From: Brachyspira suanatina
GTDB taxonomy: Bacteria; Spirochaetota; Brachyspiria; Brachyspirales; Brachyspiraceae
Direction of reading: 5' to 3'
DNA: 64,000 bases
Assembly: GCF_001049755.1 (NCBI RefSeq)
Contig: NZ_CVLB01000001.1
Coordinates: 496,001 to 560,000, forward strand
In this document: one piece after another, positions 561-6,155 of the stretch
Layout: every line of letters starts with the position of its first letter
Numbering within the stretch: the first letter of the stretch is position 1
Program-made: the position numbers and the translations under genes
Notes under the pieces: model-generated
What the model was told of the DNA's origin: nothing
Database searches by the model: none
What the model saw: only the letters and a program-made list of their open reading frames with translations

Positions 561-2024
561 TTAATCATTTAAATAGAATGAAAGTATATTCTTAAATGAT
601 TTTATATTGTATTTTATATCGTAAATATCTCTTATACTTTTTATCTTTTGCCAAACGTATCTAGGAGTAAATGACAAATTATAAAAATATTCAATGTATT
701 TAAATATTTGCTCATCATCCATATTTAATTTCATAATACTTTTTCTCATATCATAATCAAACCAATTTTTTGTTTTTATAAGATCATTTTCGTCGCAATA
801 TTTGAATAATTTGGTTCCGGGATATGGTATAAAAAGTGAAATATTCATAGAATTAATATATCCATTAAGCATTAAATCTTTTACGATATTGAATGTATTT
901 ATTATATCTTCTTCTGTTTCCCAAGGATAACCTATTTTTACCATTATATCTGTGAATAATCCTGCTCTTTTAGCTAATTTTATAGATTCTATAACATTTT
1001 CTACAGAGTTATCTGTAATACCTAGTTTTTCTATAGTTTTTGTATTTCCTGATGGTAAGTTAAAAATTATAGTTTTGAATCCTGATTTTTTCATCATTTT
1101 ATAATCTTGATATTCTAATATTCCAAGATAGATATAACAGTCTAAATAAACTTTTTTATTAAGTTTTCTTTCTTTCATAGTTTCGCAGAATAATGAAAGC
1201 CATTCTCCGGTAGGAAAATAAACACTTGTATCTAATATTTCTTTTATTCCGTATCTTTTATTTAGATATTCTATTTCATCTATAACGTTTATAGGATTTC
1301 TCACCCTTACATTATCAAAAATAACATTAGAAGAATTACTGTTGTAATTATTATATGAAGATCCTCTTGCTGACATTATAAATGTACCCGGTGTTTTTTT
1401 GAAGTATTCATTTGTTTTGGAATATAGCTTCCAATTTGTGAGATTTCTATCTATAAATGGAAGTCTGTCTAAAGATTCTTCAAGCTCAAATTTTCCAGTA
1501 TTTCTTATATTTCCATTAGATGTTCTGTAGTATATTCCTTTATTTAATTTTTCACCATTGTTTATATGATTAACCAAATTTAAAAGAAGAAAGTCATAAT
1601 CTCCGCCAGTTAATATAAAATCGGTTTTGGATTTCTGCATACTTTCTTCAGGCAAAGCAGTAACATGATCTCCCGCTAAAACTATATATATATTTTCATA
1701 TTTTTCTTTTATTGATTCTATAGTATCCCAAATATAATTAATGATAGGAGTTTTTACTTCAAAAAATATTAAATCAGGAGCTATATTATCTATATCATTA
1801 AACCAATCTATAGTTGTAATATTAGATGCTATTGTATCTAAAAATATAACATTAATTCCATTATTTTTTAATAAAGTAGCGGCGTAAGAAGGCAGCATAG
1901 GATATGAATATGATGGATTTTTTAACCATTGAAATTGTCTATTTAAAGATATTAACGGATATCCATTATTATATTCAAAAGGCGGATATGTTATACAAAC
2001 TTTTTTAATTTCTTTTTTTTTCAT
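561..2024 (-). CDS. Radical-SAM/B12-binding-like protein lacking the cluster cysteines
   Basis: The 487-residue protein has the layout of B12-binding-domain radical SAM enzymes. Residues about 8-160 form a Rossmann-like cobalamin-binding region (ITYPPFEYNNGYPLI, LAGDHVTALPEE, TGGDYDFLL). Residues about 210-440 form a radical SAM TIM barrel, including RNPINVIDEIEYLNKRYGIKEI and IGYPWETEEDI. Where the CxxxCxxC motif should follow ARG (residues 219-221), the sequence reads SSYNNYNSNSSN: every cluster cysteine is replaced, so a normal radical SAM [4Fe-4S] site cannot form there. The rest of the frame is intact, which argues against simple decay. It lies 19 bp downstream of the Cys-cluster gene and is probably co-transcribed with it. 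The substrate is unknown. Confidence 0.85.
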   Translation of the reverse strand: MKKKEIKKVCITYPPFEYNNGYPLISLNRQFQWLKNPSYSYPMLPSYAATLLKNNGINVIFLDTIASNITTIDWFNDIDNIAPDLIFFEVKTPIINYIWDTIESIKEKYENIYIVLAGDHVTALPEESMQKSKTDFILTGGDYDFLLLNLVNHINNGEKLNKGIYYRTSNGNIRNTGKFELEESLDRLPFIDRNLTNWKLYSKTNEYFKKTPGTFIMSARGSSYNNYNSNSSNVIFDNVRVRNPINVIDEIEYLNKRYGIKEILDTSVYFPTGEWLSLFCETMKERKLNKKVYLDCYIYLGILEYQDYKMMKKSGFKTIIFNLPSGNTKTIEKLGITDNSVENVIESIKLAKRAGLFTDIMVKIGYPWETEEDIINTFNIVKDLMLNGYINSMNISLFIPYPGTKLFKYCDENDLIKTKNWFDYDMRKSIMKLNMDDEQIFKYIEYFYNLSFTPRYVWQKIKSIRDIYDIKYNIKSFKNILSFYLND

Positions 2025-2043: not shown

Positions 2044-2484
2044 TTATTTAGTTTTTTTAGCTACTTTTTTCTTTGTAGATGAAGATTTTTTCTTAATTAT
2101 TTTATTTTCATATACATATTTTTCTAATTCGTATTGATCATCAAATATTACATCATACCATTCTTCATATCTTTCGCATTTAGGCGGACTATGTTTTGAG
2201 CAAATTTCATTTCTATTTTCATAGTTTTTGCAAAGGTATGTTTTTTTATCTAAATATCTGCATTCGCTTCTTATCATATGATACCAAGTATTTTCATATA
2301 TAAATATAAATGAATGTCTGAAATGCAAATACCATTTTAAAGTATTAAGTTCGCTTTCATTTTTAGGCGGAGATATTTCCATAACCAAATCATGGCAGCA
2401 TAATGAATTGCAGTCAGCACATAATTTTTCACTTACTTTTTCTTTTCTATTTTTTAATAAACTATCTGAAGGTATAACTTTCAA
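2044..2484 (-). CDS. YkgJ-family cysteine-cluster (putative metal/Fe-S binding) protein
   Basis: This 146-residue protein carries the YkgJ-type cysteine pattern: CADCNSLCC near residues 22-30, then CRYLDKKTYLCKNYENR and CSKHSPPKC. Members of the family are thought to bind zinc or an Fe-S cluster, but their reaction is generally unknown. The C-terminus is a lysine/serine-rich tail (KKKSSSTKKKVAKKTK) that could bind nucleic acid or be disordered. It sits 19 bp upstream of the radical-SAM-like gene and 63 bp downstream of marR, all leftward, so the three may form one transcript. The family assignment is good; any partnership with the neighbouring cysteine-less protein is inference. Confidence 0.8.
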   Translation of the reverse strand: MKVIPSDSLLKNRKEKVSEKLCADCNSLCCHDLVMEISPPKNESELNTLKWYLHFRHSFIFIYENTWYHMIRSECRYLDKKTYLCKNYENRNEICSKHSPPKCERYEEWYDVIFDDQYELEKYVYENKIIKKKSSSTKKKVAKKTK

Positions 2485-2547: not shown

Positions 2548-2988
2548 TTAATTATTAAAATAATTTTCCATAAATGTCATAAGTTTTTTCTGAGGCTCTA
2601 CATAATTTTTTATTTCATCCTCTGTAAGACATTTAAGCATTTGCATATCTAATTTTTCTAATTCTTTTAATATAGGTTCAGCAAAAGTTAAGCCTTTTTT
2701 TGTTAAACTTATTAATCTGTTTCTTTTATCTTTTGGATTAATCTTTTTTTTGATATAGCCTTTCTTCTCAAAATTATCCAATATAGAACATACAGTCTGC
2801 TTTGGAACAGATAGTTTTTCTGTGATAGTATTCTGTACACATTCTCCGCTGTTATAGATTATAAATAAACTGAATAAAGCCAAATCTGTAATGCCATACT
2901 GTTTAGCCCATAAGTAATAAAATCTATTAGAAGTATACCAAAAATCATATATGACTTCCATATATTTTTTTATATCTTCATTTTTCAT
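2548..2988 (-). CDS. MarR-family transcriptional regulator
   Basis: The 146 residues match the MarR winged-helix fold. The recognition helix region is VQNTITEKLSVPKQTVCSILDNFEKKGYI, followed by the wing NPKDKRNRLISLTKKG, and the ends form the helical dimer interface. MarR proteins are usually dimeric repressors of nearby genes and release DNA on binding small phenolic or related ligands. It is first in a leftward group with the YkgJ-like and radical-SAM-like genes, which are its most likely targets. No clear palindromic operator was picked out upstream of the start. The length is normal for the family. Confidence 0.9.
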   Translation of the reverse strand: MKNEDIKKYMEVIYDFWYTSNRFYYLWAKQYGITDLALFSLFIIYNSGECVQNTITEKLSVPKQTVCSILDNFEKKGYIKKKINPKDKRNRLISLTKKGLTFAEPILKELEKLDMQMLKCLTEDEIKNYVEPQKKLMTFMENYFNN

Positions 2989-5723: not shown

Positions 5724-6155
5724 TTATGCGTATGTATCTACATTATTGCCTTTACTAGAAGAGCTGGCTATTGCTGCTTTTGTAACACCGCCTGAAACAT
5801 AAACTCTTTTACATTCAGGGCATATATTAGTAGTTAATGTTACATTTTGGAAAATTACTTCTCCGCCGCTTTTTTCTGCTGATCTCTGATTATTGGCAAC
5901 ATGTTCCTGTTCATGTGATGCTACCATAGAAGGAGCACTTGAAGGATCTATTTTAGTAGGAGTTTTAAAAGATACGCCTATATCATTAGAACCATCTTGA
6001 TATGTTCTTGATGCACAAGTTTTACATACTCCAACTTCGCTTATAGGAGTTTTTTGGCTTGCTTCCTGAACAATATTATTGATATTATTGTTATTATTTC
6101 TTATATTATTAGTGTTTCTTATATAAGGAGCATTATTACGAATACTTATTTCCAT
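5724..6155 (-). CDS. Small SprA-related putative metallopeptidase with HExxH motif
   Basis: This 143-residue protein matches the small SprA-related family found in many anaerobes. The core reads CKTC (44-47), TYQDGSNDIGVSFKTPT, then the HExxH-type site SHEQEHVANNQ (H81, E82, H85), and a second cysteine pair CPEC (112-115) followed by KRVYVSGGVTKA. The motif suggests zinc binding and perhaps peptidase activity, but to my knowledge no member has a well-defined reaction. The first 30 residues are asparagine-rich and probably disordered. No signal peptide is present. It stands alone between the glycosidase and a divergently transcribed ankyrin gene. Confidence 0.75.
   Translation of the reverse strand: MEISIRNNAPYIRNTNNIRNNNNNINNIVQEASQKTPISEVGVCKTCASRTYQDGSNDIGVSFKTPTKIDPSSAPSMVASHEQEHVANNQRSAEKSGGEVIFQNVTLTTNICPECKRVYVSGGVTKAAIASSSSKGNNVDTYA

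Follow-up and report, generated by a model that had tools for sequence, protein, structure and literature searches.

Radical SAM proteins make up one of the largest enzyme superfamilies, which is defined by its cluster cysteines. One gene of Brachyspira suanatina, lying in the 64,000-nucleotide stretch of DNA that we analysed (the window), encodes a protein with the fold of this superfamily and none of these cysteines. We asked whether this gene is decaying or misread, or whether it encodes a pseudoenzyme with a function of its own. The features on which the answer draws are listed in Table 1.

Table 1. Features of the locus and of the intact paralogue
Feature	Position	Strand	Details
Cys-less B12-domain/radical-SAM-fold protein, putative pseudoenzyme	561..2024	(-)	487 aa; PF04055, PF02310, AlphaFold2, Foldseek
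N-terminal Rossmann (B12-binding-type) domain	1425..2024	(-)	residues ~1-200; conserved G118-D119-H120 and G140-G141
Former [4Fe-4S] loop	1326..1370	(-)	residues 219-233; ARGSSYNNYNSNSSN replacing GRDCWHHRCTFCSWT
YkgJ-like CxxCxxxCC protein	2044..2484	(-)	146 aa, TTG start; PF03692 28.7 bits; immediately upstream of the Cys-less gene
MarR-type regulator gene (named from sequence only)	2548..2988	(-)	upstream neighbour in most Brachyspira
Intact paralogue, B12-binding-domain radical SAM protein (example)	G000:C1:1754424-1755866		RDCWHHRCTFCSWT

A radical SAM fold without cluster ligands

The open reading frame starts with ATG and contains no internal stops. Pfam recognised the radical SAM barrel (PF04055, 34.2 bits against a cut-off of 29.5), in an alignment that begins downstream of the cluster loop. 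The B12-binding domain model PF02310 scored 30.0 bits in the window protein and 32.9 bits in the genome frame (cut-off 32.1), and 30.0-34.9 bits across the window protein and one orthologue. The top NCBIfam matches, HpnJ (TIGR03471) and BchE (TIGR02026), aligned over nearly the full length. Both are cobalamin-dependent, non-methylating radical SAM enzymes. Membership in either family was rejected, as the scores of 99.5 bits for HpnJ and 84.2 bits for BchE fall far below the curated equivalog cut-offs of 577.6 and 481.35.

AlphaFold2 gave a two-domain model of the Cys-less protein (pLDDT 87.9, pTM 0.89) and a model of an intact paralogue encoded elsewhere in the genome (pLDDT 90.5, pTM 0.90), with a confidence in the former cluster loop of 68 versus 77-85 in the paralogue. 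The best solved structures retrieved by Foldseek were alike for the two proteins, namely AprD4, MgmA, OxsB and TsrM. The predicted fold is therefore the one known from cobalamin-type radical SAM proteins, except that its cluster site has been erased. The partial TIM barrel of the superfamily is thus present (PF04055 above its cut-off, AlphaFold2 and Foldseek), as is the N-terminal Rossmann cobalamin-type domain of the cobalamin-dependent enzymes (PF02310, and a model that shows the strands and helices of a Rossmann fold). The three-cysteine [4Fe-4S] site is absent, with none of the three ligands in any of 25 Brachyspira orthologues.

The DNA of the loop (gca aga gga tct tca tat aat aat tac aac agt aat tct tct aat) has no Cys codon and is translated as A219-R-G-S222-S-Y-N-N-Y227-N-S-N230-S-S232-N. 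Each of the ligand positions 222, 227 and 230 is Cys in all 23 cysteine-bearing homologues of the alignment; the 25 orthologues have Ser, Ala or Gly at 222, Tyr, Phe or His at 227, and Asn, Ala, Ser or Val at 230. Within the loop no substitute triad of ligand cysteines was found in the 25 orthologues, and the sole Cys, at residue 229 in five rows, aligns with a Phe position and not with a ligand position. Four cysteines are conserved in the clade (C10, C280, C296 and C410), the last three of which are common to intact homologues; because all four lie outside the loop, we rejected them as a replacement set of ligands.

The original prediction was made from the sequence of this stretch, and held that CxxxCxxC had been replaced with no cysteine remaining and that a Cys-rich YkgJ-like protein was encoded just upstream. 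The loop DNA and the aligned ligand positions confirm the replacement, and the PF03692 match confirms the neighbour. The structure prediction that it had called for yielded a confident two-domain model in which the fold is predicted to be intact.

Fixation of the loss and purifying selection in Brachyspira

Whole-genome searches covered 26 genomes of the genus. An orthologue was present in 25 of them, at 54-100% identity, and every one had an intact frame and lacked all three ligand cysteines. The whole locus was missing from the remaining genome, G005, a fragmented assembly that is 88% complete. Pairwise Nei-Gojobori dN/dS in the Cys-less clade had a median of 0.14 and fell to 0.04-0.11 in the closest pairs. 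The former loop is about as constrained as the remaining protein (pN/pS 0.22 versus 0.24-0.26); it is thus not free to vary and is subject to constraints specific to it.

As the loss is common to 25 separate genome assemblies, it did not arise by chance, and it dates back to the root of the genus or further. The idea that the gene is a pseudogene in the making, or that the missing cysteines reflect a sequencing or assembly error, draws on the faster evolution of the Cys-less gene relative to the intact paralogue. However, the separate assemblies, the intact frames, a dN/dS far below 1 and the age of the loss leave this idea with a negligible probability, and we rejected it on the alignment and dN/dS. 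Fixation under purifying selection, a check suggested with the original prediction, was borne out (25/25 Cys-less, dN/dS about 0.04-0.14). This result excludes intact orthologues combined with neutral decay of the present copy, and the same loss in 25 orthologues excludes a sequencing correction that restores the cysteines, the two outcomes that had been named as speaking against the prediction.

An intact-type paralogue, ~48% identical to the Cys-less protein over the full length, was found in all 26 genomes. Its motif was intact in each of the 16 sequences read (with K for R in one), and in G013 the paralogue is seen only as an N-terminal fragment at a contig end. The paralogue resembles the Cys-less protein in its two-domain architecture and predicted fold. 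Unlike the Cys-less protein, it has CX3CX2C, W232, G268, E324, H359 and Q394; its gene evolves 2-3 times more slowly (dN/dS 0.042 against the median of 0.14) and has no YkgJ-like neighbour. The two genes co-occur in 25 of the 26 genomes and are never adjacent.

Clade-wide loss of catalytic residues, a kept fold and purifying selection, which together mark a pseudoenzyme, were all found here. A clade-wide pseudoenzyme inside a superfamily that is defined by its cluster is thus well supported by these comparisons, and we have very little doubt that the protein has a selected function.

Changes in the barrel and the Rossmann domain

Among residues conserved in Cys-bearing homologues, the Cys-less clade has lost 15 of 52 in the barrel; in the Rossmann domain it has lost 2 of 51 and retained 49. 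With motif windows that were picked with the alignment in view, after seeing the data, losses were commoner at barrel motif positions than at Rossmann positions (Fisher p = 1.4e-4), and their enrichment in the windows versus the remaining barrel was non-significant (Fisher p = 0.13). Residue 232, two past the last Cys, is Trp in 23/23 Cys-bearing homologues of the set and Ser in 25/25 orthologues. It occupies the position of TokK W215, a residue in contact with both the amino group of SAM and an acetamide of cobalamin (PMC9692996). The strand-end residues D266, G268, E324, H359, T361, M363, Q394 and T396 are also replaced; for this list the homologues and the threshold differed slightly from those behind the count of 15 in 52.

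At the strand ends single new residues have become fixed, namely D359 (His in intact homologues), M361, K363 and N394 (Gln in intact homologues). Over the whole protein, 84 positions are fixed in at least 24 of the 25 Cys-less sequences and are, in intact homologues, either variable or occupied by another residue; G221, N226, N228, S232, N233, D359, K363 and N394 are among them. We read the barrel changes as a coherent loss of the cluster/SAM side. Viperin is destabilised when its three cysteines are removed (PMC3283665). A superfamily member that lacks them naturally and is conserved would thus have had to change elsewhere to compensate, and the large number of newly fixed residues in this clade agrees with this.

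From what is known of the family, a protein missing the three cysteines would form no site-differentiated [4Fe-4S] cluster and would not cleave SAM to the 5'-deoxyadenosyl radical, and hence would have no radical SAM chemistry. The loss of this chemistry had been predicted at the outset; the disappearance, along with the cysteines, of W232 and of further residues at the barrel strand ends adds support, and we regard a protein without radical chemistry as almost certain.

Relatives in other genera and the origin of the Cys-less gene

Two relatives from other genera of the family, each downstream of the same YkgJ-like gene, keep the cysteines: L058 of G043 (RDCWHHKCTFCSWT), directly downstream, and L103 of G045 (RGCFHNKCTFCRSS). 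L103 (2444-3868) combines an intact CX3CX2C with Ser for the otherwise invariant Trp two past the last Cys, and has a changed strand-2 motif (IDSSLTL) and a long branch. G045 also encodes a second, distant intact subfamily member (L106:2960-4393, GRGCGHKSGCGICTFCIWQHALW) with a longer cluster loop that resembles those of Actinomycetota and FCPU426 loci. A second Cys-less relative, with an intact 484-aa frame, occurs in G044, from another genus of the family (L104:4491-5936, RYYKCNKSTNSSLP). The G044 genome is 98% complete and has neither a YkgJ-like gene nor an intact close paralogue.

In a tree with long branches left out, L058 was sister to the Cys-less clade (support 99/92). A tree uniting both Brachyspira paralogues was not rejected (p-AU 0.158), and by plain identity L058 is nearer the intact paralogue (71%). 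C10 is found in L058, L103, L104 and all 25 Cys-less proteins and is Tyr in the intact Brachyspira paralogues, a distribution that favours a duplication older than the split from L058. Because L058, beside the same YkgJ-like gene, keeps the cysteines, the ancestor of the gene at this locus most simply, and very probably, carried the cluster ligands, whichever age of the duplication is right. The losses in L104 and Brachyspira require two changes on the best tree, and a one-clade tree was not rejected (p-AU 0.43). Given L104, the cysteines were lost either before Brachyspira arose or on two occasions, and the L104 loss is possibly an independent event.

Members of the intact family recur by glycosyltransferase-like and other glycan- or lipid-type genes (L059, L062, L064-L066 and L055-L057), a hint to the class of substrate. 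Outside Brachyspira their neighbours resemble, judged from sequence only, glycosyltransferases, methyltransferases and epimerases, which weakly suggests that the ancestral enzyme worked in glycoconjugate or lipid synthesis. No close relative was found on a plasmid; among the matches listed, those on plasmids were distant, with less than 25% identity. One of them, a full-length radical SAM relative (24% identity, H1-H3), is carried by a 27-kb plasmid of Lawsonia intracellularis, another pig gut bacterium.

The YkgJ-like neighbour

In the window 19 bp separate the stop codon of the YkgJ-like gene from the ATG of the Cys-less gene. Throughout Brachyspira the Cys-less gene lies downstream of the YkgJ-like gene with a gap of a few to 29 bp, as taken from the genome comparison, in which minus-strand gaps are overstated by 2 bp. 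The YkgJ-like gene is adjacent in 25 Brachyspira genomes and in two other genera. Eight cysteines are invariant in 27/27 YkgJ-like sequences, none has been gained, and dN/dS is 0.042. Since this constraint is unrelaxed where the neighbour has lost its cluster, the role of the YkgJ-like protein would not simply be to serve that cluster, and a dedicated donor to the radical SAM cluster is not favoured for the same reason.

YkgJ-type proteins with 26-35% identity occur in many other spirochaetes, mostly in genomes where the search found no close relative of the Cys-less radical SAM gene. The pairing is therefore a trait at the level of the family. In G044 a Cys-less relative occurs without a YkgJ-like gene, so YkgJ is not always needed. 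A sequence search returned no solved structure of a YkgJ relative. The MarR-type gene is not directly upstream in the B. pilosicoli-like group or in the other genera. Farther along the window, a 143-aa protein (5724-6155, minus strand) has two CxxC pairs (CKTCASRTY and CPECKRVY) and a stretch, SHEQEHVANN, that resembles a metalloprotease helix.

Candidate functions of the Cys-less protein

In the Brachyspira lineage, a gene directly downstream of a YkgJ-like gene, with relatives in the same position that still have CX3CX2C, has lost its three cluster ligands and the SAM/cobalamin-bridging Trp; an intact paralogue was retained elsewhere in the genome, and purifying selection maintains the changed protein in 25 of the 26 genomes. 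We propose that its product is a non-catalytic scaffold that most likely binds cobalamin or a cobalamin-like ligand through the preserved Rossmann domain and acts with the eight-Cys YkgJ-like protein encoded next to it, in which the putative metal site has not changed. We lean towards this reading as a whole, that is, a pseudoenzyme derived from cobalamin-dependent radical SAM enzymes, fixed in the genus, that acts non-catalytically through its Rossmann domain and the YkgJ-like protein. The chance that the protein acts with the YkgJ-like protein appears to us about even.

The best structural match, AprD4, acts as a diol dehydratase; the presence of a Rossmann domain is therefore no proof that cobalamin is used. 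In OxsB, TsrM and TokK the residue under the cobalt sits in the loop past Rossmann strand 3 (PMC13331322). The residue past this strand is Lys or Arg in 20 of the Cys-less rows and Thr or Ala in five, the latter being the B. pilosicoli-like sublineage. This change speaks against cobalamin binding, as does the PF02310 score of the window protein, 30.0 bits, under the cut-off. Only two other PF02310 matches occur in the genome, an 874-aa open frame (a strong match) and the intact paralogue, and the only cobalamin-riboswitch match (G000:C1:1455849-1455992) scored 23.4 bits, below the Rfam gathering score of 31.5. Retention of cobalamin binding only, which the original prediction named as a possibility beside a structural role, is plausible, and we put the probability that the protein binds cobalamin slightly short of even. 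It is rather improbable that the protein works without cluster and SAM as a cobalamin carrier or sensor and, together with the YkgJ-like protein, hands over corrinoid or reads its state; if true, the fold would have gained a new kind of use, and a YkgJ-like protein would have been assigned a function.

Three other explanations keep the gene functional and give the protein a different task. In many duplicated enzyme/pseudoenzyme pairs the pseudoenzyme partner serves as a subunit, and the Cys-less copy could be a non-catalytic heteromer subunit of the RDCWHHRCTFCSWT paralogue that tunes its stability or substrate choice. The joint presence of the two genes in 25 of the 26 genomes, their identity along the full length and their agreeing predicted folds would fit such a complex. 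However, the genes are never adjacent, the nearly complete G044 genome keeps a Cys-less relative without an intact close paralogue, and G005 has the paralogue and not the Cys-less gene (a weak point, given the state of that assembly), so we consider the heteromer unlikely. We are more doubtful that the emptied pocket was rebuilt for a non-radical reaction, such as methyl transfer from methylcobalamin without radical cleavage of SAM or chemistry involving D359, K363 and N394. These residues and M361 are newly fixed in the former pocket strands, and the cobalamin radical SAM protein TsrM, which transfers a methyl group without a 5'-deoxyadenosyl radical (PMC13331322), is a precedent; yet TsrM still carries a cluster, no new catalytic site is recognisable in the Cys-less protein, and the intact paralogue is under 2-3 times stronger overall constraint.

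The strict adjacency of the two genes, and the eight YkgJ cysteines that stayed invariant after the ligand loss, would also suit a metal site supplied in trans, in which an Fe or Fe-S centre of the YkgJ-like protein would come to lie where the cluster used to be and the pair would still bind SAM. We find this highly improbable, as the SAM-side barrel residues have changed too (W232, G268, E324, H359 and Q394), the YkgJ-like gene also pairs with relatives bearing their own cysteines and shows no Cys gain, and G044 has no YkgJ.

The non-catalytic pseudoenzyme that we favour has several consequences. The Cys-less clade allows a direct test of what the scaffold of Rossmann domain and barrel can do once radical chemistry is gone, and its protein is a natural negative control for the intact paralogue. 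The gene pair provides a way into the YkgJ (CxxCxxCC) proteins, which are poorly understood. If annotated automatically as a "radical SAM protein", one gene in nearly every Brachyspira genome would be credited with misleading chemistry. Our literature search, which covered few subscription journals, found no report of a clade-wide, selected loss of all three cysteines in a cobalamin-type member, and this case is not described in the literature found on radical SAM pseudoenzymes, missing CX3CX2C or Brachyspira.

Comparison with known systems

The heme chaperone HemW is a member of a different subfamily that has no N-terminal Rossmann B12 domain, and it keeps the cluster motif, unlike the Cys-less protein. 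Chaperones of the HemW type are a precedent for a tetrapyrrole-carrier role on a radical SAM fold, and the cluster is reportedly not required for their heme binding (discussion in PMC10320005). The closest structural counterparts are the top Foldseek matches, AprD4 (6fd2), MgmA (9ccb), OxsB (5ul3/5ul4), TsrM (6wte) and TokK (7kdx), which match with TMq values of 0.61-0.74 at 12-17% sequence identity. All of them have a cluster, unlike the Cys-less protein, and TokK has Trp where the Cys-less clade has Ser.
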